The notes beneath the pieces are model-generated. The model did no database searches. It was not told the origin of the DNA and saw only the letters and a program-made list of their open reading frames with translations. DNA of 64,000 bases from Litchfieldia sinesaloumensis (GTDB lineage Bacteria; Bacillota; Bacilli; Bacillales; Bacillaceae_L). The translations under genes and the position numbers were made by a program. Positions 11,736-34,335 of this stretch are shown in pieces (position 1 is the first letter of the stretch; each line of letters starts with the position of its first letter). The stretch is from positions 1,568,532 to 1,632,531 of the forward strand of contig NZ_LT732529.1 in NCBI RefSeq assembly GCF_900156865.1, given 5' to 3'.

Positions 11736-11812
11736 CAAAACTGCCCTCTTTAGTACAATTACTTCCACAAAAAAGGCACTTCTCCTCCTGTAAGGAAAGC
11801 ACCATTAAGAAG
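11736..11812 (-). repeat. hairpin repeat element, copy 1
   Basis: Minus strand: GGTGC, a self-complementary arm (TTTCC / GGAGGAGAAGTGCC), then TTTTTTGTGGAAGTAATT and a tail ending AAGAGGGCAGTTTTG. It is a diverged copy of the element consensus, placed 3' of the 81-residue membrane gene. Confidence 0.55.
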
Positions 11813-11830
11813 AATATATAAATCGAAAAC

Positions 11831-12076
11831 CTAGCCAGCGATTCCTCTTGCTAACACTAGGAAAAATACAAAAACCAAGACTCCACCATTTAATAGACCA
11901 CCCACTATTCCTGACAACCACTTCTTTGATAGCACTGCAAATACAATACCCAATAGCGAAAGTGTCCCTAGAATGATAATACCCATCAATAAATTCGCAT
12001 TAGGTCCTCTTAAAATTAAAAATGAAATAATACTGGCAATAACCATTAGAAAAGAAAAAAATCCTAACTTATTCAT
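11831..12076 (-). CDS. small membrane protein, 81 aa
   Basis: Mostly hydrophobic, with three predicted membrane segments: residues 3-21, 29-50 and 58-77. It has a short basic loop (Ser-Lys-Lys-Trp-Leu-Ser) between the last two. No family recognised. A good ribosome site (GGGGGGATGAG) precedes the ATG. A copy of the hairpin repeat lies directly downstream and another upstream, so the gene forms a repeat-gene-repeat unit. Confidence 0.6.
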   Translation of the reverse strand: MNKLGFFSFLMVIASIISFLILRGPNANLLMGIIILGTLSLLGIVFAVLSKKWLSGIVGGLLNGGVLVFVFFLVLARGIAG

Positions 12077-12140
12077 CTCATCCCCCCCTATAACTTACTT
12101 TCAATTGTTACTTAATAGAAATTGTATAGCCTTTCTTATT

Positions 12141-12222
12141 CAACAATCCTACTTCATTAGTTAAATAACTTCAACAAAATAGGCGTTAATCCTTCTTGGA
12201 TCATCGCACCCGTTACTTCAAT
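12141..12222 (-). repeat. hairpin repeat element, copy 2
   Basis: Minus strand: GAAGTAACGGGTGCGATGAT, then a loop and complementary arm ending AACGCC, then TATTTTGTTGAAGTTATTT and the tail AACTAATGAAGTAGGATTG. The stem GCGATGATCC/GGATTAACGC pairs along its length, with one G-T and one mismatch. Confidence 0.7.
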
Positions 12223-12290
12223 AATGAAGGTTTGATACCTTTCAATACTTATAACATCCTCGGATGAAATCCTTTTCCCCTATTGAAAAG

Positions 12291-12466
12291 TCAGACCCTT
12301 GGGGTTTCACTTTGTTTCGTTTTAGTGAATAGACCTACAATGATTGTGACTATTCCACCTATCAATACAATAAAGTAAAAAAGCATTAAAGTGGCTGTTC
12401 CGTCTAATCCTTGAAGCACCTTGGTTTCATGTAATAAAGGTAACAATAGCGGATAAGTTAAAACCG
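12291..12466 (-). pseudogene. C-terminal remnant of a membrane protein
   Basis: Minus-strand reading up to TGA 12291 gives a membrane segment (LFYFIVLIGGIVTIIVGLF) followed by a basic tail Thr-Lys-Thr-Lys-Gln-Ser-Glu. Upstream, the frame is interrupted by TAA near 12466, and no start with a ribosome site precedes it. It looks like the end of a transporter or similar protein that has lost its beginning. Family not recognised. Confidence 0.4.
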
Positions 12467-12625
12467 ATTAGGTCAAATAATACAGACTCATGAGTTGTAA
12501 GTGGTTTATTTGCTATACTCAACAACCATTTCCAGCACTTGCTAGTTTTATCAATCTAACAAATTTAATGGAGCAGCTAATTTTAATAACTGGTTACTCC
12601 ATTAAACTAATTGCAGCCGTTCGTT

Positions 12626-12663
12626 GAAAATGGACTCATTAATCAGAAATAATGAGTCCATCT
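12626..12663 (-). terminator. strong intrinsic terminator
   Basis: ATGGACTCATTA and TAATGAGTCCAT form a perfect 12-base-pair stem followed by TTTT on the minus strand. It lies downstream of the fragment at 12672-12785, which suggests that an expressed gene once stood there. Confidence 0.75.
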
Positions 12664-12671
12664 TCTGCAAT

Positions 12672-12785
12672 TTAAGCCTGGACAGTAGAATTTGGGTTTT
12701 CAACCCATTCATAGGATACTTTTTGGCCCTGTTTTTATAGATCTGAATCCATCAGGAAACCTTTTAAGAAAAAAATCGCTGATTA
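12672..12785 (-). pseudogene. short gene remnant, frameshifted
   Basis: Two coding-like pieces in different minus-strand frames: DFFLKRFPDGFRSIKTGPK, then VSYEWVENPNSTVQA and a TAA at 12672. A perfect terminator follows immediately. There is no start codon with a ribosome site. Probably the degraded 3' end of a gene of unknown family. Confidence 0.35.
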
Positions 12786-12849
12786 GTGAGTCTATTATAA
12801 AAACAAGAACTATTATAAAGTACTTTTCGGCTTCTTGGTTGATATTTTT

Positions 12850-13233
12850 TTAATATGTTCTTCCAGCTAACAACGCAACATATAAAGAAATTGTGACTAG
12901 TAATATTGCAAAAAAATCTCGTCTCGCAAGGTAAGTTGTAGAGTGAAGACCTTTTATAGTTAAGTGAGCAAACAGGTAAGAGATAGGCATTAGAATAATC
13001 TTTTCTAGTCCATTTTTTATTTTTTCATTCTTACGGAATATGGCCAATCCAATTCCACAAATTAGTAAAAATCTAGCAATCTTTGCTTTTTCAATTTCTG
13101 TTTGAGTTGGGGTGAATAGTTCCTCAATTTTATCCCTAACAATTGAACTAGAGTAATTAACTTCATCTAATTCAAGCAAATAATCTTCTAACTGTTCGGA
13201 TTCACAAACCATTTTCATAATAATATCATCCAT
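12850..13233 (-). CDS. hypothetical protein with C-terminal membrane segments, 127 aa
   Basis: Residues 1-45 are acidic and helical; two or three hydrophobic segments follow (about 52-67, 80-92, 108-123). Not recognised. The ATG at 13233 is directly abutted by a GGGGG run, so the ATG five codons later may be the real start. It stands alone between a decayed region and the hairpin repeat copy near 13.8 kb. Confidence 0.5.
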   Translation of the reverse strand: MDDIIMKMVCESEQLEDYLLELDEVNYSSSIVRDKIEELFTPTQTEIEKAKIARFLLICGIGLAIFRKNEKIKNGLEKIILMPISYLFAHLTIKGLHSTTYLARRDFFAILLVTISLYVALLAGRTY

Positions 13234-14639: not shown

Positions 14640-14692
14640 AATTAACAGTCAATATCTTCTTGAATTAACCTGCTTCTTTAGTTTAATATCCA
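14640..14692 (-). repeat. hairpin repeat element, tail-only copy
   Basis: Only the conserved tail is clear: minus strand ATTAAACTAAAGAAGCAGG followed by TTAATTCAAGAAG. It lies between the alpha/beta hydrolase and merR genes. Confidence 0.45.
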
Positions 14693-14710
14693 TAATGTTA
14701 CATTTGGATT

Positions 14711-15331
14711 TTAACATAAAACCCCAACTGCAGGCTTCATAAACGACACCATGGCTTCGGTATGTTCTACCACTTCAGGATCATTCGGAGTTCTTCCTTC
14801 TTGAATGAATTGCTTCATTTTGCTAGACCATCTGGCCATTTCCTGATCCAAATCAAGCTGCGCCGTGTACGAGTGCAATTTATTATATACCGAATTAGCA
14901 CCGTGCTCATTTAACCAGCGAGTTCGTGCCTCTTCATTTTTCAAGGCATGAATGAGTACAAGCAGTGAATCATGGTCGACAGTCTCAGGTCCTGAAACGG
15001 TTTCTTGAGCACGGGCAATGGTTTGTAAAACCGTATCAATTTGTTTCCGTTTTTCTTCCAGCATCCTTGCCTGAGTGGTGAGCGTCATTGCAATATCCTG
15101 CTGGGGTTGCTTAAGGTACTCTGAAATATCCTCCAGTGACATATCTAAAAATTTTAGCACTAGTATTTTTTGAAGCTGCTCAATGGATGTATTGTTATAC
15201 TTCCGATGTCCACGTTCTGTGTATTCCGAAGGTTTCAAGAGCCCAATCTGATCATAGTGTCTTAGTGTGCGTTCTGTGATTCCTGTAAGTTTCGCAAATT
15301 CTCCAATCGAGTATGTTTTCTCCATTGTCAT
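14711..15331 (-). CDS. MerR-family transcriptional regulator, TipAL-like
   Basis: A 206-residue regulator with an N-terminal winged helix (YSIGEFAKLTGITERTLRHY, then LLKPSEYTERGHRKY), a dimerisation helix (residues 75-105) and a C-terminal effector domain of about 90 residues resembling the TipAS-type drug-binding domain. The start is preceded by AAGGGAGTG. A TTGAC inverted repeat in its own promoter suggests autoregulation, usual for MerR proteins. The ligand and other targets are unknown; the neighbouring alpha/beta hydrolase could be one. Confidence 0.85.
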   Translation of the reverse strand: MTMEKTYSIGEFAKLTGITERTLRHYDQIGLLKPSEYTERGHRKYNNTSIEQLQKILVLKFLDMSLEDISEYLKQPQQDIAMTLTTQARMLEEKRKQIDTVLQTIARAQETVSGPETVDHDSLLVLIHALKNEEARTRWLNEHGANSVYNKLHSYTAQLDLDQEMARWSSKMKQFIQEGRTPNDPEVVEHTEAMVSFMKPAVGVLC

Positions 15332-15366
15332 TTGTCTTCACTCCCTTTCCATTTGAACTATATCAC

Positions 15367-15381
15367 TTGACGTAATGTCAA
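15367..15381. promoter_or_regulatory. likely MerR operator
   Basis: Inverted repeat TTGAC-N5-GTCAA some 36 bases upstream of the MerR-family gene. It overlaps the -35 position of a probable promoter, as expected for an autoregulated MerR promoter. Confidence 0.55.
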
Positions 15382-15577
15382 TAGCAAAGGCTTTTTCATT
15401 TTTTGTATTGGGTAGAGCTGAGCTTCCCCTTTTTAGTTGGTTCATACGAGATGAACTTACTCCTAATTTAATAATGTGAATTTATTAAAATTTCTTATAT
15501 AATAGCAAATATATGGAAAAACCAATCCTTACAAGGGGGGATACAAAATAGGAGTATTAATCATATGTCTGATTGTT

Positions 15578-16450
15578 TTGTTTAGGATCATGTTATGGAT
15601 ATGCCATGATTGGCTAGGGTTCAGTGTGTTGACCACGATATTTATAACTCTTTCTTTATTATCCATCCCTATTATTTACAAAGAATTGAAAGATACTAAA
15701 AAAGCAAAAGAACGGTTGAGAAAGGCTAAAACCTATCAAGCACTTGTTGTAGCTAAAGAAGTGATTCAGGGATATCGCGGAAGAACAACGTTCACTTTTG
15801 AATTAACCGTTGAAGACGAAACCGTTCAAATCAGCAAAGATAACGTACATATCGATTTAGAAGTCAATCAAATAGTAGACGTCTATCCGGCTTACGATGA
15901 ACAGAAAAACGTAGCTGATTTTGAATTTGTAGAGTATGTAAAGGTGGAATCAAAAGTCTATAAGCCCTTTATTTTTTTCGGTATCGGTTCCATTTTAACA
16001 ACCATTTTATTTATTCTAATCGACAAGGCACCTTTCATGACGACGATATCGAATATCATTGGGTTATCCTTTTTCATGATTCTATTCTTGTTTACTGGTA
16101 TTTATAGTATTAAAAGAGCGTTCATCAGTAAAAAGGCGTTAACCCCTGTTGAAGCAATCATTCATGAGGTACGAATTGTCACATTTTATCATTTTCACCA
16201 TGAGGTTGTAACTCCGCCACGGACTCACATCAGTCCTATCTATCGGGTAGAGGTTGATGGTCAAACGTATCAATTTTTAGGAGATAAATCGATAAAAGAA
16301 GAAGATAAAGGAAAGAAAGAGATTGTCTACTATGATAAAGAAACGATGGAATTCTTTGATTTGCCTAAAAGTAAAGGGGATTGGCTTGTAGGGATTACAT
16401 TGATTGTACTTTGTATACTGATTGGAAATAATATTTTACAAGAATTTTGA
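15578..16450 (+). CDS. DUF3592-like membrane protein, 290 aa
   Basis: An N-terminal membrane segment, a soluble strand-rich domain (residues 48-120), two central membrane segments (about 130-150 and 158-180), a second soluble domain with the DUF3592-like IYRVEVDGQTYQFLGDKSIK and IVYYDKETMEF, and a final membrane segment. The role of the family is unknown. TTG 15578 lacks a ribosome site. The strong AAGGGGGG site lies further upstream and points to an in-frame ATA near 15549, which would add about ten hydrophobic residues and complete the first membrane helix. The true start is therefore uncertain. Confidence 0.7.
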   Translation: MFRIMLWICHDWLGFSVLTTIFITLSLLSIPIIYKELKDTKKAKERLRKAKTYQALVVAKEVIQGYRGRTTFTFELTVEDETVQISKDNVHIDLEVNQIVDVYPAYDEQKNVADFEFVEYVKVESKVYKPFIFFGIGSILTTILFILIDKAPFMTTISNIIGLSFFMILFLFTGIYSIKRAFISKKALTPVEAIIHEVRIVTFYHFHHEVVTPPRTHISPIYRVEVDGQTYQFLGDKSIKEEDKGKKEIVYYDKETMEFFDLPKSKGDWLVGITLIVLCILIGNNILQEF

Positions 16451-16460
16451 TAATCAGCAA

Positions 16461-16514
16461 GTGGGCCAGACCCCCGGTGAATTAACGCCTTGGTTCACTC
16501 GGAGGTCTGGCCCT
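16461..16514. repeat. palindromic repeat with GGGCCAGACC arms
   Basis: GGGCCAGACC and GGTCTGGCCC form perfect ten-base arms around a loop that itself contains GGTGAA/TTCAC-like arms. It sits between convergent genes and may act as a bidirectional terminator. A related copy lies at 39976-40024. Confidence 0.7.
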
Positions 16515-16533
16515 AATTGTGATATTCTACTGC

Positions 16534-17103
16534 TTACTGCTTATTTATATAACTTAGTATTTCTGAACGTGTATGAGTATCGTTGACTAATACTCCTCGA
16601 ACTGCTGAAGTTACCGTCTTAGCCCCAGGTTTCTTTACTCCACGCATCGTCATACACATATGCTCGGCTTCAACTACAACCATAACACCATGTGGATCTA
16701 ATGTTTCCATTAAAGTATCTGCCACGGTTGAAGTAATTCGTTCTTGAAGTTGAGGTCTACGAGAAACTGCATCAACTGCTCTAGCAAGCTTACTTAAACC
16801 CGCTACTCTTCCATTCCTTGGAATATAAGCCACATGAGCAACTCCGTAAAAAGGAACAAGATGATGCTCACACATTGAGTGAAACTGGATATCCTTCACT
16901 AATACAAGTTCTTCATGATTTTCGCTAAAAATAGTTTCAAAGAATTCCTTTGGATCCGTCGTTAGTCCTGAAAACACTTCTTCATACATCTTTGCAACAC
17001 GCTTAGGTGTATCTAGAAGTCCCTCCCGACTAGGATCTTCACCAACAGCCTCTAATAGTAAACGTACGGCCTCTTCAATCTGTGCGTGATTGATGTTTGA
17101 CAT
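16534..17103 (-). CDS. folE: GTP cyclohydrolase I
   Basis: A 189-residue enzyme converting GTP to 7,8-dihydroneopterin triphosphate, the first step of both folate and queuosine synthesis. Zinc ligands are visible in [11 protein letters not shown] and in [11 protein letters not shown]; other family motifs are [20 protein letters not shown] and [14 protein letters not shown] 17103 is chosen because AGGAGG precedes it. A frame starting 13 codons earlier begins inside the spacer. It is the last gene of the queC-queD-queE-folE operon under a preQ1 riboswitch, where it should feed GTP into preQ0 synthesis. Confidence 0.93.
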
Positions 17104-17146
17104 TTTGTTTCCTCCTACTGGTAAACTATTAATATATTTCACTTAC

Positions 17147-17875
17147 CTACACACCACGTTTATTTCCCCAAATAAAGGTATGGAGTTGTGGCAGTACTTT
17201 TATATTCTTGAATTCATTGTCTACCATCGTTTTATCGATGAGCCATTCATATTTTAGTAATAACTGCTGAATTAGATGTTTATCATCCGTTGTTTTGTTA
17301 TCTTCATTTCCTACTTGTAGAAAGAATGGAACTTCTGGATAACGAAGGTGTACATTCTTTGCGTATTTATAATCCTCATCATCGAAGACTACAACTTTCA
17401 AACTTATATTATTAGTTGATGTTTGAGCATACATTCTATTAATGATCATATCTAATACATCAAAATCTGTTTTCATTCCAGAACTTGGTGGTTTAGGAGA
17501 AATGGTTAATTCATCAATTTCTAAAAACCAATCCTGCCATCTACTTCCCTGTGTTTCAAGCCCAATTTTAATATTTTTCTCTTTTAAAAGGGAAACGAAG
17601 TATTTTAAATTTTTTAATAGGGCTGGATTACCACCCGATATTGTGACAAAAGAAAAGCCGTCCCCACCGAGGGAAACAAGTTCCTGCCAAATTTCTTCTG
17701 CATCCATTTGCCTGATTAAATCTTTGCCAGAACCATCCCAAGTAAACGCCGAATCACACCACAAACAAGAATAATCACAACCCGCTGTTCTGACAAACAT
17801 CGTCTTCTGACCAATGACCATTCCTTCTCCTTGGATGGTTGGGCCAAAAATCTCCAACACTGGTACTTTAGTCAA
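17147..17875 (-). CDS. queE: 7-carboxy-7-deazaguanine synthase
   Basis: A 242-residue radical-SAM enzyme that ring-contracts 6-carboxytetrahydropterin to 7-carboxy-7-deazaguanine. The cluster motif is CDYSCLWC (Cys-x3-Cys-x2-Cys), preceded by IFGPTIQGEG; the GGNP segment is the SAM-binding SGGNPALL. TTG 17875 is preferred because it gives the N-terminus Met-Thr-Lys-Val-Pro-Val-Leu-Glu, matching family length. The longer ATG-started frame overlaps queD by 68 bases. With TTG the overlap is eight bases, consistent with coupled translation. Confidence 0.9.
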   Translation of the reverse strand: MTKVPVLEIFGPTIQGEGMVIGQKTMFVRTAGCDYSCLWCDSAFTWDGSGKDLIRQMDAEEIWQELVSLGGDGFSFVTISGGNPALLKNLKYFVSLLKEKNIKIGLETQGSRWQDWFLEIDELTISPKPPSSGMKTDFDVLDMIINRMYAQTSTNNISLKVVVFDDEDYKYAKNVHLRYPEVPFFLQVGNEDNKTTDDKHLIQQLLLKYEWLIDKTMVDNEFKNIKVLPQLHTFIWGNKRGV

Positions 17876-18362
17876 GCTCCATCCACTCCCGTCTTGCCTC
17901 AGCGAAACTTGTAGGTGTTTCGTATAAACGAACAAACTCTACTCTCGCCCCATTGTATTGTTTCCTATTCTTCTCAGAATCTAGTGATTCTTTCATTTTT
18001 TCATAGATCCAAACAACCATATTTTCTGCTGTCGTATTCATTTTGGGTAAAGTTTCATTCAGATATCGATGATCGAGATGAATTTCAATCTCATTTTTCC
18101 AAATTTCTTTTATATCCCCAAAATCAATTACAAGACCGATTTCATCTACATACCCACTAATACCAAATATCACTTTGTACGTATGCCCGTGAAGATTTTT
18201 GCATTTCCCTTCATAACAGTGAAGGTGATGTGCTGCATCAAAAGTAAATTCCTTGCTCACAAGTACTCTCTTTTTATGATACTTAAGTTCATTTTTAGTT
18301 ATATCTTGATCTATTTTTTGTAGATTTTCTACTATTCTAAAACCGAAGAAGTCTAATCCCAT
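17868..18362 (-). CDS. queD: 6-carboxy-5,6,7,8-tetrahydropterin synthase
   Basis: A 164-residue zinc enzyme that makes 6-carboxytetrahydropterin from dihydroneopterin triphosphate. Zinc-binding histidines lie in FDAAHHLHCYEGKCKNLHGH, which also holds the catalytic Cys. The IDFGDIK and HLDHRYLNE motifs follow, and the C-terminal RLYETPTSFAE is typical. Its ATG overlaps the queC stop as TAATG. It is close in length and organisation to the Bacillus subtilis protein. Confidence 0.93.
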   Translation of the reverse strand: MGLDFFGFRIVENLQKIDQDITKNELKYHKKRVLVSKEFTFDAAHHLHCYEGKCKNLHGHTYKVIFGISGYVDEIGLVIDFGDIKEIWKNEIEIHLDHRYLNETLPKMNTTAENMVVWIYEKMKESLDSEKNRKQYNGARVEFVRLYETPTSFAEARREWMELD

Positions 18363-19030
18363 TATGCCTCAGCTCCTTCTAGTGATTTAAGATACTTCTC
18401 CAATCCCTGTTTTCTTAATTTACATGCAGGGCACTCTCCACAACCATCCCCAATTACTCCCTCATAACAAGTTAGGGTTTTTTCACGGACATAATCTAGT
18501 ACATTTAATTCAGCAGCCAATTTCCATGTGTCTGCCTTATCTAACCACATTAGTGGAGTATGAATAACAAATGGTTTATCCATTGATAGATTAATTGTCA
18601 CATTTAGAGATTTAATAAATGCATCCCTACAATCTGGGTATCCACTAAAGTCCGTTTCACATACACCAGTAATGATGTGTTTTGCACCCACTTGGCTTGC
18701 TAATACCGCAGCAAATGATAAAAAGATTAAGTTACGACCTGGAACAAATGTCGATGGTAAATCACCATTTTCTCCGTCTTTTATTTCAATGTCATTCCGA
18801 GTTAACGCATTAGGAGCAAGTTGGTTTAATAATTGCATATCTAGAAGATGATGTGTAACATTTAATTCCTGTGCAATTTCTTTTGCACACTCAATCTCTT
18901 GCTTATGTCGCTGATTATAATTAAATGTAACTACCTCTACCTCTTTAAACGTTTGTAGTGCCCAAAATAGACAAGTAGTACTGTCTTGTCCACCACTAAA
19001 TACCACAATTGCCTTTTCATCTTTTATCAT
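18362..19030 (-). CDS. queC: 7-cyano-7-deazaguanine (preQ0) synthase
   Basis: A 222-residue ATP-dependent enzyme that turns 7-carboxy-7-deazaguanine into preQ0. The PP-loop SGGQDSTTC is at residues 10-18, and the zinc-binding C-terminus contains [22 protein letters not shown] 19030 has AAGGAGA upstream; the 13 extra upstream codons would run into the riboswitch terminator. First gene of the operon. Confidence 0.93.
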
Positions 19031-19051
19031 AAAAAATTCTCCTTCCAAAAG

Positions 19052-19083
19052 AAAAAACAGTACTCCCAAGATAGAAGTACTGC
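19052..19083 (-). terminator. preQ1 riboswitch terminator
   Basis: On the minus strand GCAGTACTTC and GGGAGTACTG arms followed by TTTTTTC, directly between the preQ1 aptamer and the queC ribosome binding site. Confidence 0.85.
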
Positions 19084-19089
19084 TTCTTC

Positions 19090-19123
19090 TTAGTTTTTTT
19101 AGAGAGGGGTGCTAGAACCTCTA
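19090..19123 (-). promoter_or_regulatory. preQ1-I riboswitch
   Basis: Minus strand AGAGGTTCTAGCACCCCTCT followed by CTAAAAAAACTA is the compact class I preQ1 aptamer: an H-type pseudoknot with the AGAGGTTCTAGC stem-loop and A-rich tail. Binding of preQ1 should form the downstream terminator and switch off queCDE-folE. Confidence 0.93.
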
Positions 19124-19487
19124 CCGCAATTTCGCGGATTTATATGAAATTAATATAAATATAGTATCACAAATTCATCCATAGTGTACAAGTTTTACCT
19201 TTGTAATCTTATGTAAATGCTATCAACATTGAAAACGTCATGAAGTTTGGTCAACCACAGGGTTATTATTTATATACTCTTCTCATGCCAAAAGAATTGA
19301 TGTTCCACCTGAACTTTTCGGCTAAATTGGTTTTTGTGTAAGAAAGGTGAGATTCCATACGACATGCAAGTTTGAACTTAAGGGTACACCACATTCTTCA
19401 AAAGAACCCTATTGTGCCTTTTTGCGTGCAAAACTTCCGATTGTCCCCTTTAAGAACCGTCCCCAGTGTTTTCAGTGTTTCTTGATA
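19124..19487. other. intergenic region with a REP-like palindromic half
   Basis: Upstream part: a weak promoter for the preQ1 unit (minus strand TTGTAC, 17 bases, GATACT). Around 19438-19468 there is TTTAAGAACCGTCCCC flanked by TTGTCCCC. The AAGAACCGTCCCC core resembles REP-type sequences that accompany single-domain Y1 (RAYT) transposases. No transposase is in this window. No gene seen. Confidence 0.45.
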
Positions 19488-20738
19488 TTAAGAGGATATA
19501 TTACTCTTCCCCACATGCCATACATAAGGTGGGCGCGTTTTATTAACAGCATAATCACCTACTACTCTCTCTTTATAAATAAGAGGATTATGAGAGGCAA
19601 TGGTTCGTGCATTACGCCAATAGCGATCAAAGCTCTTGGTTGGTAATGTGGCCGAAGCTCCTAATGCGTCGAACAATAATGCTGTTGCATCAAGTGTTAA
19701 GCTACTGACCACAACTTGCGCTTGTGACACTTCTATTTCTACTTCATCATTTACCAATTCTTTATTTTCACCGTTTCCAGCCAGATGCAGCTCATAGGCA
19801 TTTTGTAAAGATTCAGCTGCTTTTAGGACAATGGCTCCAGAGGAATATGCTAAGCTATGAATTTTTCCGACCACTTGCAGAACTTGCGGGTCTTCACTTG
19901 AACGAGCACCCGCTGAATGTGTATAGGTTCTTTTTCGTTCTGCTACTGCTTTTGAAACGTCATTTGCAGCTGCACGGGCAATCCCAGCTAAAGTCGCTAA
20001 ATGCATCATTTGAAAAAAGGCAGCTTGATATGTAGCATTAAACTCCTCTGTTAGAATTTCACTTTCCTGTAATTGCACATCAGTAAACGTTGTTGTTCCG
20101 CTACCCGTCAATTTTTGACCAAAGCCATCCCAATCATCAATTACGTTCACGCCTTTTGCATATCTTGAAATAACAGCAAAGACTTTATTTTCTTCCTCTT
20201 TGGTTGCCAAAACAAGAATCCAATCGGCATAAATGGTGCCCGTCGAATAATATTTTGTTCCGTTCAAATACAGCTGGTCTCCTTCTCCTTTTGTCACTTT
20301 CGTTAAGAACGTGCCAGCCTTTGCACCAGCAACTTCAGACCATGCATTGCCAACAATATCTCCCTCTAAAATGCGCTTTATCCACGTACTTCTAAGTTCA
20401 CCCTCTGGTGAATTCAACACCATCTCCACAAAAGCAAAATGTGCTCGTAATGCTTGTGGTAGATTCGAATCCGCCTCTCCTAATTCAATAAGAAGATTAA
20501 ATAACTCTGGGATCGTTGCACCCAATCCGCCCTCTTCACGTGGAATCCGAATCGCACCGAAACCCGCTTCCTTTAACAAGTTGATTTCCTCAAAAAGTAG
20601 TTTTCTCTCATTCTCTCGGTGAACCGCACCTTCACGTATTCGTTGAAAAATATCTCTATACCTTGTTGCTAATTGTTCATAGTTCGTACTAGGAGCACTG
20701 CCCCATACACCTCTTGCTTTTTCTATCGTTACTGTCAT
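19488..20738 (-). CDS. SfnB/DszC-like flavin monooxygenase
   Basis: A 416-residue acyl-CoA dehydrogenase-fold protein of the sulfur-acquisition group. N-terminal helical domain with IRIPREEGGLGATIPELFNL, middle domain with NAWSEVAGAKAGT and a TKYYSTGTIYADW strand, C-terminal helices with FDALGASATL, and the characteristic end WRNARTIASHNPLIYKERVV, seen in DszC-type enzymes. Third gene of the S-box operon after the isochorismatase-like and 122-residue genes. Reduced flavin must come from elsewhere. Exact substrate unknown. Confidence 0.8.
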   Translation of the reverse strand: MTVTIEKARGVWGSAPSTNYEQLATRYRDIFQRIREGAVHRENERKLLFEEINLLKEAGFGAIRIPREEGGLGATIPELFNLLIELGEADSNLPQALRAHFAFVEMVLNSPEGELRSTWIKRILEGDIVGNAWSEVAGAKAGTFLTKVTKGEGDQLYLNGTKYYSTGTIYADWILVLATKEEENKVFAVISRYAKGVNVIDDWDGFGQKLTGSGTTTFTDVQLQESEILTEEFNATYQAAFFQMMHLATLAGIARAAANDVSKAVAERKRTYTHSAGARSSEDPQVLQVVGKIHSLAYSSGAIVLKAAESLQNAYELHLAGNGENKELVNDEVEIEVSQAQVVVSSLTLDATALLFDALGASATLPTKSFDRYWRNARTIASHNPLIYKERVVGDYAVNKTRPPYVWHVGKSNISS

Positions 20739-20773
20739 CTCTCATTCCTCCAGCCATGTATTTTTAAAAAGTA

Positions 20774-21142
20774 TCATGCCTCACTTACGGTTTTCTGTTT
20801 ATTTCTGGAAACTCGTTTTCTCGGTCTATAAAACTTCTGAAGTTCTCTTGTTAGTCCTCCATTTCCAAACCGGATAAATTTATCTTGTTCCTGCTTTATA
20901 CCTTCTTCTATCGTGTAATCTAGAAAAGCCAAAAGATAGATACGACGGTAATGGATATTGATCATTCCATTTTCATAAAACCAGTTATCGATCGTATTAA
21001 AGACACCCCTATTTACCCCGTATTGACTATTACACCATTGATAAAATTGTAAATCAGGTAGATTAAGATGTTCACTCTGCTTAAATGAATACACTTCTCT
21101 AGTTTCATTACGAATCTTAGTAGATTCTACACTTTTTTTCAT
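20774..21142 (-). CDS. unknown protein in SAM-riboswitch operon, 122 aa
   Basis: I do not recognise this protein. ATG 21142 follows AGGAGGGC; a longer frame begins inside the upstream spacer. The sequence is basic, especially the C-terminus (Tyr-Arg-Pro-Arg-Lys-Arg-Val-Ser-Arg-Asn-Lys-Gln-Lys), and contains aromatic-rich segments such as LPDLQFYQWCNSQYGVNRGV and NWFYENGMINIHYRRIY. No membrane segment. Sandwiched between the isochorismatase-like hydrolase and the SfnB-like monooxygenase with short spacers, it is certainly co-transcribed. A role in organosulfur use is inferred only from context. Confidence 0.65.
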   Translation of the reverse strand: MKKSVESTKIRNETREVYSFKQSEHLNLPDLQFYQWCNSQYGVNRGVFNTIDNWFYENGMINIHYRRIYLLAFLDYTIEEGIKQEQDKFIRFGNGGLTRELQKFYRPRKRVSRNKQKTVSEA

Positions 21143-21201
21143 GATGATTGCCCTCCTATGGTTGTTTCCTTTCATTTATTGTCAATCTACTGAACACAAC
21201 T

Positions 21202-22136: not shown

Positions 22137-22160
22137 AAATATCCGAACGCATTTATCTCT

Positions 22161-24743: not shown

Positions 24744-24785
24744 ATTGGCACCTACCTTTACATTATCTCTATTTGAATAATCCTT

Positions 24786-24868: not shown

Positions 24869-24916
24869 CTTTTTTACAAATTATTGAAGTATCATAAAAC
24901 AGAAATCTATTTTATA

Positions 24917-25288: not shown

Positions 25289-25387
25289 AGTAGCTCTCCT
25301 ATGTTCCAAAAGTATAATTGTGTAATTTTACACTAATCGTAACATAACGTTCACTTTTCGTATATAAAATATTACCAAATTATTATT

Positions 25388-25443
25388 CAACTTAGCTGCC
25401 CCTTGTGAAAGCTCTAATCCTTCAAACCTCGCACCCGTTAGTT
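25388..25443 (-). repeat. hairpin repeat element, shortened copy
   Basis: Minus strand begins CTTCAACTAACGGGTGCGAG and ends with AAGGGGCAGCTAAGTTGAA; the T-run part is lost. The stop codon of the upstream lipoprotein-like gene (25438) lies inside this element. Confidence 0.55.
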
Positions 25444-25992
25444 GAAGTAAGGGATTAATTCAATTTCATTATTGTTTCCATCTAATAATATAAATTCATC
25501 AGGAAGAGGGTTCTCAAAATGATCAGGTACTTTTTCGTATATAAGTAATGTTTCGTCATCAGGCATGTTCAATTTAAGATCATGTATCTTATTTCTTGAA
25601 TTAATTAACATAGTGTTAATTTTCAAATTAGGGTTTTTCCCATATAAAACTATGTAATTACCTTCACTTGTTTCTATTAACCGATTATTAATTAAACTCC
25701 CGCCATGACTACTCGTAACTATTTTCAACTTACCATTTATTCCTTCAACAAGGTGAGCGTATCCATACCCTTCATGGAATTGAAATAATGATACATAGGA
25801 TTTTGAATCATCAAGTTGTACCACTTTTAGTATATTAGGGTCATAAACTTCCATACTATACCCTCTATTTAGCCAAACTTTTAAACTTGATTGAATAGCT
25901 TCTTTATCATTTTCAATTTTATATTCATTAAAATAGTAAAATGAAAATCCAATGCCAAACACTAAAAGAAAAAATAATATTTTCTTTTTCAT
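25438..25992 (-). CDS. membrane-anchored hypothetical protein, 184 aa
   Basis: ATG 25992 follows GGAGGGGGG. A basic start and one membrane segment (KKKILFFLLVFGIGFSFYYF) suggest an N-terminal anchor with an extracytoplasmic domain of about 160 residues, strand-rich with several Tyr/Asn turns. No lipobox Cys. Not recognised. Its TAA lies within a repeat element. Confidence 0.55.
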   Translation of the reverse strand: MKKKILFFLLVFGIGFSFYYFNEYKIENDKEAIQSSLKVWLNRGYSMEVYDPNILKVVQLDDSKSYVSLFQFHEGYGYAHLVEGINGKLKIVTSSHGGSLINNRLIETSEGNYIVLYGKNPNLKINTMLINSRNKIHDLKLNMPDDETLLIYEKVPDHFENPLPDEFILLDGNNNEIELIPYFN

Positions 25993-26025
25993 TCTGACTT
26001 TACCCCCCTCCAAATTCGCTTATTA

Positions 26026-26072
26026 TTTTCAACAACCTGCTTCTTTAGTTTAATAACTTCAACAAACACATT
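26026..26072 (-). repeat. hairpin repeat element, tail copy
   Basis: Minus strand TGTTTGTTGAAGTTATTAA and then ACTAAAGAAGCAGGTTG. It lies just downstream of an ordinary intrinsic terminator (26091-26130) that may have replaced the repeat's own hairpin. Confidence 0.5.
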
Positions 26073-26090
26073 TTTTTATCCTTTTTTTAG

Positions 26091-26130
26091 AAAAAAAAGA
26101 ACGAATTCCACCATTGAGAATTCGTTCTTT
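26091..26130 (-). terminator. intrinsic terminator
   Basis: AAAGAACGAATTC and GAATTCGTTCTTT are perfect complementary arms followed by a T run on the minus strand. It ends the transcript of the 97-residue membrane gene. Confidence 0.8.
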
Positions 26131-26524: not shown

Positions 26525-27193
26525 CTACTTATTAAATCGTTTGTTAACTTCAATTGTAATGAACTCTGGCAAATAGTTTGGAGTACATCCTCTTGATACC
26601 ATTTCATCTTTGTAAAGACCCGTTCTCTCTCCAATTTTAATACAACGTGCACGGTTCTTTTCATCATAAACGCCTATCCAGCCTGCAGTGAAATTCATAG
26701 CCCATTGAACTTCCGGCTCTTCCTGCGCAATCGTAGCTTCTATTGCAGATAGCAAATATTCGGTGTTATCAGGCGGTGTTTGTCCAGTCCATCTCAATCG
26801 CCCTTGATAATACCAGAATACTCGCCTTTGAAGAGCAGAAGGGCTATTTTCCCATGACTCCATCAGTGCAATTGTCTTCTTGTCTTTGGTGAGCTGATTA
26901 GCCATTAACCAATCTATTAAGTTAGTTCGCTCTTTAAAAGTGTGAGTCTGCATATCCTTATCAAGCTTATCTAGCACCTCTTGTGAAAGAAGTTTTTTAT
27001 CCATAATTAAGATAGCTAATTGTCTGGGCATAAACTCTTCAGTTGACCAAAGTTCCATAGCTAGTTCGTGATCTTTTTTAATCTCCTTCGCAATCTTTCG
27101 TAAATCACCTAACTTCGTTTTACTCTCAATTTGAGATAGAATGTTCTCTGCTTTTGAAGTACGTTTTATTTCTGTACCTTTAGTTTCATTCAT
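26525..27193 (-). CDS. DNA alkylation repair (AlkD-like) HEAT-repeat protein
   Basis: A 222-residue helical protein of the AlkC/AlkD superfamily, HEAT-like repeat glycosylases that excise alkylated bases. Matching segments are LGDLRKIAKEIKKDHELAME, LWSTEEFMPRQLAILIMDKK and EVQWAMNFTAGWIGVYDEKN, where the Trp-Ala-x-Asn is a conserved feature of the subfamily. ATG 27193 gives Met-Asn-Glu-Thr. Stand-alone gene with an ordinary promoter region upstream. Confidence 0.75.
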   Translation of the reverse strand: MNETKGTEIKRTSKAENILSQIESKTKLGDLRKIAKEIKKDHELAMELWSTEEFMPRQLAILIMDKKLLSQEVLDKLDKDMQTHTFKERTNLIDWLMANQLTKDKKTIALMESWENSPSALQRRVFWYYQGRLRWTGQTPPDNTEYLLSAIEATIAQEEPEVQWAMNFTAGWIGVYDEKNRARCIKIGERTGLYKDEMVSRGCTPNYLPEFITIEVNKRFNK

Positions 27194-27354
27194 TTTATAC
27201 AACTCCTTTATTAAAACACTGTTTCAGTATATGTACTTGAAGGGATTTATCAAGAACTTAATTTTTCTTATAAGTCTAATTGCATTGATTTGCCTCCAAA
27301 GTTTACCCTTTTCATATTGTAGCATATATTATATAAGAGCTTTCTCAACTGAAA

Positions 27355-29792: not shown

Positions 29793-30323
29793 TTAACAAT
29801 TATTACTATATTCTATTTCATGAAAATCAAATTTCAATCGGTCCACAATTTCTTTTGCACATTCCATCATCGATTGAGTGTATGTATTAATCTCGACATC
29901 GTAAATTTCCTGCCGATGTACAAAATTGAGCTGAGAAATTGCTTGCCCAATTTGCCGGTCTCCTCTGAAATGTTCTCTACGTTTTAGCTCTTCGACAGGG
30001 CAATGAACCCCAACAAGAAGGATTGGGTAATTGTTAAGTGTTTTATAAAAATGTTGTAATGTTAAGGGGTTATGGAGAATTTGGTCAAGTATTAAATTAA
30101 TGCCTCGTTCTGAGAACATCGCCACATTTCTATAATAAAAATATTCTGTTCCAACGGGTATTAGCCGCTGGTTATCTCTATCTTCCATCTTTTCTACGAC
30201 TAAATCATAATCATCTACGCTAAAAGCAAAAAAGTCAGGAAGTAACTTTGTTATTTCCTTTGCTAAAGTTGATTTCCCTGAACTTGATACACCATTTAGA
30301 ACGATAATCATTCCTTTTTCCAT
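29793..30323 (-). CDS. chloramphenicol-phosphotransferase-like kinase
   Basis: A 176-residue P-loop kinase. Walker A GVSSSGKST at residues 10-18 and the DDY acidic motif near residue 37 (FAFSVDDYDLV) match the CPT family, which phosphorylates the 3'-hydroxyl of chloramphenicol in Streptomyces. Many Bacillus members have unknown substrates. Later segments LLVGVHCPVEELKRREHFRG and RQIGQAISQL complete the fold. ATG 30323 chosen over an upstream frame start because the P-loop then sits at the usual distance. Resistance is not implied without testing. Confidence 0.75.
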   Translation of the reverse strand: MEKGMIIVLNGVSSSGKSTLAKEITKLLPDFFAFSVDDYDLVVEKMEDRDNQRLIPVGTEYFYYRNVAMFSERGINLILDQILHNPLTLQHFYKTLNNYPILLVGVHCPVEELKRREHFRGDRQIGQAISQLNFVHRQEIYDVEINTYTQSMMECAKEIVDRLKFDFHEIEYSNNC

Positions 30324-30472
30324 AAATACACACTCCAATAAGCTCAGATATTACAATTAATTATAAAATTCAATTTCAATGTATAGATTTCCTGCTTATG
30401 GAAGTAAACTTACCCAATAGTTGAAGAAGCGGCAGGACTGTTCTGCTATCGCCACCAGTAAGCTTAAAAGCA

Positions 30473-31216: not shown

Positions 31217-32197
31217 TTAGTTGTTATGTTCTACATTTATAACTACATTTCCCTTCTTGTGTCCTTTCTCGACATATCTATGAGCTTCCACAATCTCATC
31301 AAACGAATAATATCTGTCAATAACAACTGTTAACTTTCCCATCTCAACAAGTTCTTTAAGGAAGTTTAATGCTTCTGAAGTTTCAGGTGGATTTCGGCTC
31401 AATAATAGTTTCTTGCTACTTGTCAACTTAGTCCATAGCATTTGAACACTTGGTAGCGGTTCAGTAACATTTATATAGGTACCGTTGTTCTTTAACCATT
31501 TCATACAAGCTGAAAAGGAACTCTTGTTTACCGCTTCAAAGATGACATCATATGATTCGTCTGTACTAGAAAAATCCCTTGCTGTATAATCAATTACTTT
31601 GTCAGCTCCCAGAGATTTTACTAATTCTAAATTCGCGGTACTACATACCCCTGTAACGTTTGCTCCGAGATATTTAGCAATCTGAACCGCATAACTTCCT
31701 ACACTTCCTGAAGCACCATAGACTAAAACTGATTGACCGCTCTTTATACCTGCTTTCTTAAGAAAATACAATGCTGTACGAGCTCCAATAGGAATGGCAG
31801 CAGCTTCTCCATAAGTTATAGTGGAAGGCTTAATTGCTACAGGACCATCTTCCTCCAAACACTTATATTCGGCATAAGCACCAAACCCTGCCAAGGTTGC
31901 TGCAAAAACTTGGTCTCCTTGCCTAAACCTTTTTACATTTTTTCCAACTAACTCAACTTCTCCAGCTAACTCCATTCCTAATATTTCTTTTTTTGGTTGT
32001 TTTAAACCAAGTGTTATACGTGCAGGTAGCCAAAAAGCAAAAGGAACTGTAAAACTCCGTGACCGAATATCTGCTACTGTTACGGTTGTGGCTTTTACCT
32101 TAACTAAGATTTCATTTTCTTTGGGAATAGGTTTTTCTACCTGTTTAAGTTCAAGAACATCGGGGGGGCCGTACATTGTGTACACAATGGCTTTCAT
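31217..32197 (-). CDS. NAD(P)-dependent alcohol dehydrogenase-type oxidoreductase
   Basis: A 326-residue medium-chain dehydrogenase/reductase lacking zinc ligands. GroES-like domain with [20 protein letters not shown] and [20 protein letters not shown]; Rossmann site [20 protein letters not shown]; later [23 protein letters not shown] 32197 follows GAGGTGGA. It is a distant homologue of the oxidoreductase at 22.5 kb. Substrate unknown. Repeat element upstream. Confidence 0.85.
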
Positions 32198-32267
32198 TTA
32201 TCCACCTCAAATTCGTTTTATTCCTTAACATAATACGAATAATTAGAATAAATAGACCGATAGTCCA

Positions 32268-32345
32268 ATAATTATTCTTAAACTATCATGCCCCGTTAGC
32301 TCAATAATTTTTCGCTCTAAGAGAGCCTTAGCTCAATTGGCGTAT
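32268..32345 (-). repeat. hairpin repeat element
   Basis: Minus strand: GCTAAGGCTCTCTTAGAGCG hairpin, then AAAAATTATTG and the tail AGCTAACGGGGCATGATAG. First of four elements in a row (32.3-34.3 kb), each separated by a single gene. Confidence 0.6.
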
Positions 32346-32382
32346 TTAGCCTAAATGAAGCTACCAAATCTGTTACTTAAAC

Positions 32383-32580
32383 CTAATGCCTAATAATATT
32401 GTCTAAGATAGGAAGTAAAATTAAGACAACTACACTTTGTATTAATGTTAGTACGATGTCCCTTTTCCAATTATTTTCAGGATATCGATTAACTAACCTT
32501 CGCCAAATAAAGAAGACTGTCCACCAAAACAGTAACGTATAAATGGCTGAAATAATACTATCGTAAAAACCATAATACAT
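32383..32580 (-). CDS. small membrane protein, 65 aa
   Basis: ATG 32580 after AGGGAGGAG; the longer frame to 32655 has no ribosome site. Two membrane segments (residues 8-22 and 41-60) with a basic-acidic loop (Arg-Tyr-Pro-Glu-Asn-Asn-Trp-Lys-Arg) between. Not recognised. Between two repeat elements. Confidence 0.55.
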   Translation of the reverse strand: MYYGFYDSIISAIYTLLFWWTVFFIWRRLVNRYPENNWKRDIVLTLIQSVVVLILLPILDNIIRH

Positions 32581-32675
32581 AATATCTCCTCCCTTATTCA
32601 TGAACCATAAACTTACATTAATAAAAAGGAAATTATACTTTCTTACGTATACCACTTAAAAATATTTCGTTATTG

Positions 32676-32754
32676 AAGTATTCTGCTTCTTTAGCTTAAT
32701 AACTTCAACGAAAATAGGCGATAATCCTTCTTGGATCATCGCACCCGTTAGTTC
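32676..32754 (-). repeat. hairpin repeat element
   Basis: Minus strand: AACTAACGGGTGCGATGATC, loop, GGATTATCGCC, TATTTTCGTTGAAGTTATTA and the tail AGCTAAAGAAGCAGAATAC. It is nearly identical to the copy at 33052-33136 over its central 65 or so bases, so one of the pair is a recent copy. Confidence 0.75.
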
Positions 32755-32755
32755 T

Positions 32756-33001
32756 TTATGCTTCACCCATTCCACTAAGCAAAAGCAAATATCCTATTGT
32801 GATAAATGCAAGAACATTAAGTATTATTAATATCCCATTTTTCCCTTTTATCCCCAAAAATGCTCCTAATAACGGAAATAAACACATTGAGATTATTGCC
32901 ATTCTACCTAATGAACCAAAAGATACACCATTAAACATTAATGAAAATAAAATAATAAATATCCCTATACAGACAGTTGAAAAAATATTGTATTTTTTCA
33001 A
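32756..33001 (-). CDS. small membrane protein, 81 aa
   Basis: Three hydrophobic segments (residues 5-27, 31-49, 54-76), short loops and a positive-inside start (Met-Lys-Lys-Tyr). The ATG follows GGGGGTGGC. Its stop codon is only a few bases from a repeat element, and a near-identical element stands upstream, so the gene is bracketed. Not recognised. Confidence 0.6.
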   Translation of the reverse strand: MKKYNIFSTVCIGIFIILFSLMFNGVSFGSLGRMAIISMCLFPLLGAFLGIKGKNGILIILNVLAFITIGYLLLLSGMGEA

Positions 33002-33051
33002 TTTGCCACCCCCTTAATTTATTACAGGTTACCACATATCCCCAATTGATT

Positions 33052-33136
33052 GTTGCACTATCCTGCCTCGTTAGCTTAATAACTTCAACGAAAATAAGCG
33101 ATAATCCTTCTTGGATCATCGCTATCCGTTAGTTTA
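33052..33136 (-). repeat. hairpin repeat element
   Basis: Minus strand: AACTAACGGATAGCGATGAT, loop, GGATTATCGC, TTATTTTCGTTGAAGTTATT and the tail AGCTAACGAGGCAGGATAG. Near-duplicate of the element at 32676-32754. Confidence 0.75.
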
Positions 33137-33187
33137 ACAATATATGCTTTTTAGTATCGGTATGAACAGGATATTAAGTTCTTCATA

Positions 33188-33586
33188 TTATTTAGGTAGA
33201 TTCAGTTGCCACGAAACTCCAAAACGGTCATTTAGCCAGCCAAATTTCTTACTGAATCCATAATCTCCTAGTGGCATCAGTGCTTGTCCACCTTCGTTCA
33301 GTTTCTGATAAAGATTGTCAAGTTCTTCTTCAGTATTACAAGTAACAAATAATGAGAATGAAGGTGTGAAGGAAAACTGATGTTTAATATTGCTGTCTAT
33401 GCACATAAATTCTTGACCTTTTAAGGTGAAAGTAGCCTGCATAACAGTTCCTTCATCCCCACTTTCATTTGCACCATATCGAACAATATTTGTAATTGCT
33501 GAATCCTCAATCAGAGATGTGTAAAAATTCATTGCCTCTTCTGCTTTGCCCTCTTGAAACATTAAAAATGGTGTGACCTTTTCCAT
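33188..33586 (-). CDS. VOC-family (PhnB-like) protein
   Basis: A 132-residue protein of the 3-demethylubiquinone-methyltransferase-like/PhnB type of the vicinal-oxygen-chelate fold. Typical segments are PFLMFQEGKAEEAMNFYTSL, SFSLFVTCNTEEELDNLYQK and the end GWLNDRFGVSWQLNLPK. Whether metal ligands are complete cannot be judged. Members are mostly of unknown function; some are antibiotic-resistance or detoxification enzymes. Single gene between two repeats. Confidence 0.8.
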   Translation of the reverse strand: MEKVTPFLMFQEGKAEEAMNFYTSLIEDSAITNIVRYGANESGDEGTVMQATFTLKGQEFMCIDSNIKHQFSFTPSFSLFVTCNTEEELDNLYQKLNEGGQALMPLGDYGFSKKFGWLNDRFGVSWQLNLPK

Positions 33587-33661
33587 TATAAATCTACCCC
33601 TTTTAGAATCTATTTTCTAAAATATAATTCAACCTATATTACAACCTATATTATTATATCC

Positions 33662-33752
33662 ATTCATTTACTAAACTGCTTCGTTGCTAAATAACTTCAA
33701 CAAAAAAAGTGCATTTATCCTTCTTGAATCAACGCACCCTTTAGGTTAAAGT
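33662..33752 (-). repeat. hairpin repeat element
   Basis: Minus strand: AACCTAAAGGGTGCGTTGAT, loop, GGATAAATGCAC, TTTTTTTGTTGAAGTTATTT and the tail AGCAACGAAGCAGTTTAG. It starts eight bases after the lipoprotein gene's stop codon. Confidence 0.7.
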
Positions 33753-33760
33753 ATAATCAA

Positions 33761-34213
33761 TTACTTAATAAAAACATTGCCAACATATTGAGCCTTCCCT
33801 CTATCCGTTTGAAGATTTACCTCAATTACATAGTCACCTGTCTCTTTCGGTAAATAAAAGGAAATACCAGTCACTTCTAAATCTAGCTTTTTATCATTTT
33901 GCCAAACCGAAACACGTAACGCTTCGGTCTTGAAATCTGCGTGATTAGAAAGCAAATCAACTTTTTCTCCCGCAATAAAATGCATCTGCTGTTGCTGTTT
34001 GGCTAACGCTATACTATCTTCTGTTTCTTTATCAATCGGGTTGTTACCTTCTCCACGCCAATCGATATTGGCCTCTACTAATTCTTCTGATGACATGTTG
34101 CTGTTACTTGAAAGTGTAATGGTGGGAGGTGAAAAATCATAACTTTCACCAATACACCCTGATAATATAAGAATAAAAACCAATCCGATAGATAATTTTA
34201 AAAATACTTTCAT
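33761..34213 (-). CDS. lipoprotein of unknown function, 150 aa
   Basis: ATG 34213. Signal peptide MKVFLKLSIGLVFILILSGC with lipobox Leu-Ser-Gly-Cys. The mature part has an early Ser/Asn-rich linker and a beta-rich C-terminal domain (SFYLPKETGDYVIEVNLQTD) that resembles an immunoglobulin-like fold. Outer membrane-face location is expected. Not recognised further. Confidence 0.65.
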   Translation of the reverse strand: MKVFLKLSIGLVFILILSGCIGESYDFSPPTITLSSNSNMSSEELVEANIDWRGEGNNPIDKETEDSIALAKQQQQMHFIAGEKVDLLSNHADFKTEALRVSVWQNDKKLDLEVTGISFYLPKETGDYVIEVNLQTDRGKAQYVGNVFIK

Positions 34214-34254
34214 TTCGCACCTCATTAATTAGTCTCATTTAATTATATATTTTC

Positions 34255-34335
34255 TGTAACTATCCTGTCTCGTTTGTTGTAAAAGATAACAGACAATAAA
34301 ACTAGCGCAGTGGGATTAGCCAACTTCTGCGCTTT
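34255..34335 (-). repeat. hairpin repeat element, diverged
   Basis: Minus strand: GCGCAGAAGTTGG and CCCACTGCGC form the hairpin, followed by TAGTTTTATTGTCTG and the tail CAACAAACGAGACAGGATAG. Confidence 0.55.

Follow-up and report, generated by a model that had tools for sequence, protein, structure and literature searches.

The window analysed here is a 64-kb stretch of DNA from Litchfieldia sinesaloumensis, positions 1,568,532-1,632,531 of contig C3 in a 4.56-Mb genome (G000). Between 11.7 and 34.4 kb, single genes on the minus strand are punctuated by copies of one repeated element, in which a hairpin mini-unit is followed by a short core. Comparison with other genomes makes it very probable that these genes and elements form part of a single-gene cassette array that lacks an integrase and belongs to an integron-like platform found in Bacillaceae and their relatives. 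A covariance model (R1) was built from seven copies in the window, and these seven, which match by construction, are the strong copies of the 64 kb (E 1e-19 to 1e-11). The element copies and core sites of the window are:

33664-33750, minus: full element (hairpin mini-unit and right core), R1 80.5 bits
33050-33138, minus: full element, R1 93.7 bits
32670-32757, minus: full element, R1 97.6 bits
30685-30764, minus: full element with a variant stem, R1 61.6 bits
24785-24875, minus: full element, R1 71.2 bits
13783-13870, minus: full element, R1 84.6 bits
12136-12222, minus: full element, R1 95.5 bits
11728-11815, minus: degenerate element outside the model set, R1 E 2e-6
26026-26114, minus: degenerate element outside the model set, R1 E 5e-5
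25378-25446, minus: truncated element, RNA fold -17 kcal/mol, z -2.9
32281-32304, minus: core site without a recognised mini-unit, at the start of a dehydrogenase cassette, found with the core-site pattern
34258-34281, minus: core site without a recognised mini-unit, found with the core-site pattern
23637-23655, minus: core-like site upstream of a dehydrogenase cassette, fuzzy match with 3 mismatches

The genes between them that are taken as cassettes, from open reading frames (ORFs) and a Pfam scan, are:

33761-34225, minus: 154 aa, no Pfam match
33188-33586, minus: VOC/3-dmu-9_3-mt family (PF06983, 5.5e-40)
32756-33001, minus: 81 aa, no Pfam match
32383-32655, minus: 90 aa, no Pfam match
31217-32197, minus: zinc-binding dehydrogenase family (PF13602, 3.8e-27)
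26525-27202, minus: cassette-type gene, DNA_alkylation family (PF08713, 3.4e-10)
24917-25309, minus: 130 aa, no Pfam match
22532-23476, minus: zinc-binding dehydrogenase family (Pfam)

A first-pass annotation of this DNA had counted at least ten copies at 11.7-34.3 kb and none elsewhere. This agrees with the seven strong, three weaker and some marginal matches found here; outside 11.7-34.4 kb, R1 gives no match in the window better than E 0.14. The marginal matches lie at 21961-22048 (E 0.013), 34252-34358 (0.026), 19020-19098 (0.056) and 14657-14740 (0.12), and a weak match outside the model set (E 0.001) spans 32275-32377. A second block without a recognised hairpin block is also seen at 32304, 34281, 23655, 13339 and 24406. 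All seven strong copies are on the minus strand, as had been stated for the clear copies. The TAA stop of ORF 25438-26013 indeed falls within the truncated element, and the four successive element-gene units described at 32.3-34.3 kb are present. The annotated range cannot be read as continuous, however: a stretch at about 14.7-22.5 kb is without a clear element. At gathering thresholds, Rfam returned only three S-adenosylmethionine (SAM) riboswitches over the whole window and no family that fits the element, and a search of 32200-33800 up to E 1 gave no match.

Over the whole genome, 17 R1 matches were obtained at E<=0.01, and 14 of them fall in two minus-strand clusters, five at 1,415-1,449 kb and nine at 1,580-1,602 kb (the window). 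The remaining matches are on the plus strand, two at 655-658 kb and one at 4,057 kb. Whether copies are scattered evenly over the genome had been put forward as a check; they are clustered, and 20 arbitrarily placed 20-kb control loci of G000 and G010 (0.4 Mb) contained no element match. R1 matches were observed in 37 of the 60 genomes searched, its own included, with 3 to 47 matches in each of eight congeners. For a wider comparison, array loci were picked for clusters or for an integrase, a selection that does not fix strand, and two loci (L128 and L130), duplicates of L103-L108, were excluded from the array, integrase, attI and core-site counts. With a profile from 300 copies, 703 elements were found in 129 of 137 loci, 695 of them on the majority strand of their own locus, and 91 of the 96 loci with at least three elements are wholly one-stranded. 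The median gap between elements is 961 nt. In the 440 gaps of 100-2500 nt, the longest ORF runs along the element in 371 and is opposed to it in 60, while nine gaps have none.

Tyrosine recombinases were found inside the array contigs of relatives in a search with PF00589. They constitute one family of Xer-like proteins of about 279 aa. A scan of 84,980 species genomes gave 203 relatives, the best of which were kept as 78 distinct loci; the recombinase loci listed belong to Bacillaceae and neighbouring families, together with two strains labelled Paenibacillus. Elements are present in 73 of the 76 non-duplicate integrase loci and lie within 2.5 kb of the gene in 70, so that a recombinase gene beside the element, for which a search had been suggested, does exist in relatives. 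The orientation is nearly uniform, with 395 of 404 elements at these loci antisense to the integrase. When the window-only model R1 was used instead, its best 150 matches at integrase loci fell in 50 of the 78 loci and 146 of them were antisense. The reading frame is open over the matched stretch in 68 of the 78 integrase copies, and R138, K162, H228, R231, H254 and Y263 are kept in 67-68 of these 68. In G000 none of this kind was found, in line with the earlier statement that no integrase is visible.

The recombinase differs from the integron integrase IntI. Against the IntI profile TIGR02249 it scores 90-114 bits, compared with a cut-off of 265. The best-matching stretches stop at position 179 of the profile (residue 185 of protein 2) or start at position 234 (residue 200 of proteins 1 and 3), and therefore about 54 profile positions face about 14 recombinase residues. 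The catalytic lysine and the HxxR motif were both matched in 17 of 19 copies, and in these they are 66 residues apart; the spacing is 71-73 in the host XerD and XerC proteins and 106 in the true IntI of G331, a genome of the same phylum, which indicates that the IntI insertion is missing. Excerpts of one study call this insertion essential, though not fully conserved (PMC8138268). As judged by profile and spacing rather than by a tree, the array recombinase is not an IntI-clade integrase with the insertion in its catalytic domain. It is 29-32% identical to the host XerD and XerC of G000 over the matched part. No IntI was detected in 199 genomes of the order (E<=1e-55), and one was detected in 299 genomes of the phylum (E<=1e-60), which served as the positive control. 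AlphaFold gave a poor model of the recombinase (mean predicted local distance difference test score 59.7), which was not used.

In the genomes of the window's own genus, the integrase was found only in pieces. Fragments of 24 to 95 residues, 67-84% identical to the recombinase, occur in five congeners; those of G002, G003, G004 and G006 lie on array contigs, on the strand opposite to the array, and that of G005 is on a contig without a known array. G000 has no such fragment and no protein closer to the recombinase than 32% identity, and none of its four PF00589 genes is near an array. Two or more cassette sites without a nearby integrase define the clusters of attC sites lacking integron-integrases (CALINs), and the window shows the analogous arrangement. 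By this analogy its arrays may be clusters that outlived their integrase or are served from elsewhere.

A candidate entry site lies beside the integrase. Upstream of the integrase start, and read towards the array, the sequence TTGAAGTAAC-GNNGCAG-GTTAGTT is present at many loci. With at most five mismatches in 17, this attI-like core was found in 47 of 71 loci and in 22 of 1000 control slices, and in 43 of the 47 it lies 60-80 nt from the integrase; five loci with less than 300 nt upstream were excluded from these counts. An earlier, loose pattern (eight mismatches in 23) had placed 42 of 52 matches at 66-77 nt, and chance probably accounts for some of the other ten. In 73 pairs of loci the leaders are 80% or more identical, and in 71 of these pairs BLAST found no match between the first cassettes; an ungapped comparison gave the same 71 of 73, and in the remaining two pairs the first cassettes are 98-99% identical. 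Over the 71 pairs the mean identity is 0.88 in the leader and 0.89 in the arm. It is still 0.86 at core position 10, the first base of the spacer, and 0.34 at position 11, so the drop falls at AACG|NN. On the 3′ side of the integrase lies a terminator-like hairpin; in 53 of 74 loci the reverse complement of AACTAAC|GGGTGCGATA comes after it (at most six mismatches in 20), and identity decays beyond this joint (19 pairs). The two joints together indicate that the integrase unit seems to be bounded in the same way as the gene cassettes and the mini-unit.

The window itself can be connected to such an entry site. Its stretch 32050-32307, in which the dehydrogenase cassette (gene 31217-32197) begins and which includes the core site, has 92.6% identity to the beginning of the cassette that stands first beside the attI-like site in Bacillus sp. 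FJAT-27225 (L178); there, another gene takes the place of the remainder of the dehydrogenase gene.

Several further features of the integrase unit were observed. In Neobacillus niacini PL-B1 (L136) and Mesobacillus maritimus MER TA 152 (L145), leader and first cassette are near-identical (98.4% over 244 nt), a likeness that may reflect recent spread of the platform between genera. In the integrase leader of L127-L191 (for example L141:9946-10006), AATAATTCCTC...GAGGAATTATT or a variant of it is present and could mask the ribosome-binding site; for 33 sequences RNAalifold predicts five pairs, two of them with double changes, at a mere -1.6 kcal/mol. At L132, L147, L152 and L155, the unit at the 3′ side of the integrase has almost the same terminal sequence, about TTGTGAANNAATGTACTTAAACTAAC, which may be another shared module.

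To locate the joints within arrays, pairs of elements from different loci were sorted by the genes they share. Under loose flank rules, only the upstream gene is shared in 27 pairs, only the downstream gene in 20 and both genes in one, with 75 ambiguous; under stricter rules the numbers are 19, 18, one and 187. The breakpoint test was run on the strict pairs, with baselines matched by genome in 2000 draws. In upstream-sharing pairs, element positions 1-75 exceed the baseline (0 to 4 of 2000 draws for the segments) and positions 76-88 are at baseline (0.51 versus 0.56). In downstream-sharing pairs it is positions 76-88 that exceed the baseline (0.76 versus 0.55, 0/2000), whereas positions 12-47 do not; the hairpin is at baseline (0.68 versus 0.69), and the spacer (89/2000) and left end (84/2000) are weakly linked. 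The middle of the element looked unlinked to either gene under the loose rules and is weakly upstream-linked under the strict ones. Unit-wise presence or absence between strains, another check that had been called for, was assessed between species, with one genome for each: units appear to be exchanged, with the same genes beside different neighbours and the breaks inside the element.

Cassettes of the window are among the genes that recur. The VOC gene upstream of element 33050-33138, with its flank, is common to G006 (L085), where the neighbour is different. The gene upstream of element 24785-24875 is common to G005 (L079; 94.6% over 387 nt, with 24788-25299 in common), and the downstream flank differs. 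The dehydrogenase cassette 22532-23546 is 89-91% identical in four other genomes (L076, L082, L085 and L095), and the gene 26525-27202 is 89-90% identical in L078, L088 and L200. Sharing also crosses genera, as between G006 and Jeotgalibacillus soli (94.7% over 396 nt). By this comparison, units appear to have been exchanged between species, and the same genes recur in new contexts.

The consensus of 150 aligned copies is close to ATTNAACTAAC-GGGTGCG-hairpin-TTTTTT-GTTGAAGTTATTNAACTAAC-GNNGCAG-GTTAGTTNAATAA. RNA structure was counted on 60 of these copies, from nine genomes, in a plain MAFFT alignment. In the central hairpin 89.8% of cells are paired and 23 cells are changed on both sides, compared with 6.4 ± 2.0 in shuffles, none of 500 reaching 23; the earlier remark that the stem arms vary yet still pair is thereby borne out. 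Neither the inverted arms of the right block nor the left and right outer arms show excess covariation, and the core arms seem to be conserved as sequence, like half-sites that a recombinase binds on duplex DNA. In 1.68 Mb of array loci, core sites of the right-block type lie on the array strand in 362 cases and on the opposite strand in 11. An upstream hairpin block accompanies 195 of the 362 and was not recognised in 167, although the pattern may miss diverged hairpins; what the joints have in common is therefore the core and not the hairpin. The site of recombination appears to be a short core defined by its sequence rather than by a fold, and the hairpin, which resembles a terminator, would be a sub-unit in part separate from it. 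The first-pass comparison with a folded site that travels with a gene is thereby corrected for the joint, whose arms do not covary. For the arms, a fold-based attC was ruled out on the same ground. Gaps of less than 100 nt between elements are rare (15 of 566). Tandem elements almost without a gap occur, for example, at L087:14465-14616, L178:8724-8885 and L200:11760-11927, an arrangement that could result from loss of a gene or from insertion of a mini-unit by itself.

Comparison of sequences shows the arrays, their orientation, the integrase link, the attI-like site, the sharing of units and the positions of the breaks, and the following scheme would account for them. A complete platform would consist of a gene for the Xer-like recombinase of about 279 aa, an attI-like core about 70 nt upstream and long one-way arrays antisense to the recombinase. 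All junctions would be formed by one core, TTNAACTAAC-G-NNGCAG-GTTAGTTNAA, with exchange at or within 1-2 bases of AAC|G. Three kinds of unit would join there: the gene cassette, GNNGCAGGTTAGTTNAATAA - gene - TTNAACTAAC; the hairpin mini-unit of about 57 nt, GGGTGCG - hairpin - T run - GTTGAAGTTATTNAACTAAC; and the integrase unit, GGGTGCGATA - terminator-like hairpin - antisense int - leader - TATTGAAGTAAC. The recombinase would catalyse the exchange, cassettes would pass through an excised form, and the mini-unit and the integrase unit may move on their own. The hairpin probably acts as a terminator, and the T run after it suggests that the mini-unit ends the transcript of the preceding gene. 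In the window's genome the integrase would be gone, the cassettes being leftovers or moved in trans. The variable NN at the break, together with two different right halves, suggests that spacer homology is not required; this would fit a single-strand exchange like that of integrons, against which the arms without covariation speak.

The platform would function like an integron without being one by definition, as it lacks the IntI-specific insertion and covarying arms. The earlier integron-like reading was largely right, and none of its three refuting outcomes was seen in this comparison of one genome per species. A further step, which we hold with moderate confidence and which rests for the independent origin on profiles, not on a tree, is that this is an independently evolved gene-capture platform, convergent with classical integrons: a non-IntI Xer-like recombinase, three kinds of unit (gene, terminator mini-unit and integrase unit) and one AAC^G crossover would make it the group's missing integron.

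Three other explanations were weighed. The elements could be unusual attC sites of a classical integron, or of its CALINs, moved by a true integron integrase. The layout is the same: an antisense integrase, an attI-like site beside it, a one-way array of single genes (695/703 elements on one strand, 395/404 antisense, 371/440 ORFs co-directional) and clusters without integrase, and the GTTAG-type core triplet recalls what we take to be the R′ box, GTTRRRY. The recombinase, however, scores far below the TIGR02249 cut-off and has the short spacing of 66 rather than 106, and IntI is confined to one genome of the phylum set and to none of the order set. Although the central hairpin covaries, a folded attC with paired R and L boxes was not found, the core arms being without excess covariation. 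A classical integron is thus very unlikely, and was ruled out on the IntI insertion and the profile score. Equally improbable is RecA-dependent homologous recombination between repeated terminators, with no site-specific enzyme and the integrase a bystander. It draws on the repeated nature of the elements, the several array contigs that end within an array, the genus without intact integrase and the linkage that fades over part of the element and not at one base. Such recombination does not account for a break within 1-2 bases at the attI-like site in 71 pairs, for a core that alone spans about 24 nt between variable arms or for an integrase antisense to nearly every element, and chance would not set an attI-like site at a fixed distance. 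An origin by RecA alone was considered unlikely on account of where the break falls at the attI-like site.

The annotation had kept as its sober alternative a dispersed terminator, repetitive extragenic palindromic (REP) or bcr-type repeat family with no part in gene movement. A covarying stem followed by a T run does resemble an intrinsic terminator, and Bacillus families of similar size have been described, namely Bant-1 and Bhal-1 (PMC2267715) and bcr (PMC6542083). REP copies are dispersed over a genome, whereas 14 of the 17 matches here fall in two one-strand clusters and the 0.4 Mb of control loci is empty; 167 of the 362 core sites are without a recognised hairpin, and whole units, not repeats alone, are common to different species. 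This alternative, contradicted by the clustering and the integrase link, leaves unexplained why the arrays run one way, why the integrase is antisense and why there is an attI-like site, and is the least credible of the three, with almost no weight left to it.

Other observations weigh against the integron-like platform itself. No intact integrase was found in the nine genomes of the window's genus (its own included, and mostly drafts), and yet their cassettes have been shuffled. Arrays lie on both sides of the integrase, with 206 antisense elements on the 5′ side and 189 on the 3′ side, unlike in classical integrons, and at L113 the sole element has the orientation of the integrase, directly 3′ of it and at a contig end (L113:12252-13161). 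The attI-like core was not found in 24 of the 71 loci. The break is not equally sharp from both sides: where the downstream gene is shared, there is some linkage of the right core's left arm (0.75 versus 0.63, 7/2000) and weak linkage of the linker (42/2000). Where the upstream gene is shared, linkage between hairpin and gene persists (0.78 versus 0.70, 3/2000), which makes independent mobility of the mini-unit uncertain. The 19 and 18 breakpoint pairs are not independent, nor are the 71 leader-sharing pairs, which come from 36 loci; the 300-copy profile was partly built from elements in the integrase loci themselves; and the comparison used one genome per species. The evidence is comparative throughout.

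The proposed platform resembles integrons and CALINs in having a recombinase antisense to a one-way array of single genes, a site just upstream of the recombinase, cassettes common to several species and clusters without integrase. It is unlike them in its Xer-like recombinase without the IntI insertion, in a short core whose arms are conserved as sequence and not as a covarying fold, in its hairpin mini-unit with a T run and in arrays on both sides of the integrase. In dif modules, the sites alternate in inverted orientation around each gene; no such alternation is seen here, where 91 of 96 loci with at least three elements are one-stranded. Acinetobacter plasmid dif modules are alike in that genes lie between short Xer-type sites and are shuffled as modules, and they rest on host XerC/XerD and on plasmids (PMC13141974, PMC7399989). 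The present system is distinguished by a dedicated recombinase, an attI-like site, long one-way arrays and a location on chromosomes as well as plasmids. The Bacillus repeats bcr1-18, Bant-1 and Bhal-1 are alike in description, as short intergenic stem-loop repeats in Bacillus relatives.

Integrons are thought to be almost missing from this group. Excerpts of a recent survey regard them as extremely rare in Firmicutes, with one complete integron, in Limnochorda pilosa, and a few CALINs (PMC9024848). The relatives studied here appear to carry arrays with their own recombinase and entry site. Such a system was not found described in the open-licence full-text literature, a scope that leaves out preprints and most subscription papers, where it may have been published. 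If the proposal is correct, a large group of soil and environmental Bacilli has a gene-collecting device of its own, a source of many single accessory genes, and new recombination sites would become available for engineering Bacillus. If the origin is independent, the logic of the integron arose more than once from Xer-like recombinases, and its need for a folded single strand becomes testable.

Plasmids also carry parts of the platform. The integrase is found, for example, on pSHB26 of Peribacillus simplex and pSP10-266k of Sporosarcina psychrophila, and BLAST detected the element in five plasmid records and in no phage record. In Sporosarcina psychrophila TMP10 the integrase lies on the 266-kb plasmid (L202, NZ_CP146249.1), and a 6-kb MobV plasmid of the same strain (L224, NZ_CP146247.1) has an ASCH-domain gene followed by an element, a possible case of cassette escape.

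Among 20 window proteins scanned from the array stretches, eight have a Pfam match at E<=0.01. At other loci, 110 of 287 cassette proteins (ORFs of at most 400 aa) were picked at random; the 90 of these that were scanned include members of the GNAT (7), glyoxalase (4), SUKH (3) and DinB (2) families; no match to defence families was obtained among the 90 at E<=1e-5. A gene of the array region, 29793-30338, resembles chloramphenicol phosphotransferase (Pfam CPT, 8.4e-38). The element-poor block 14700-22500 contains 16534-19069, which resembles what we take to be queC-queD-queE-folE, and a SAM riboswitch at 22160-22263. Two divergent SAM riboswitches lie at 6769-6878 (minus) and 7038-7139 (plus). 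At 36478-36580, short TTTGG/GGTTT-rich repeats with a period of 18-24 nt (family D5) are present, perhaps as part of a coding sequence.

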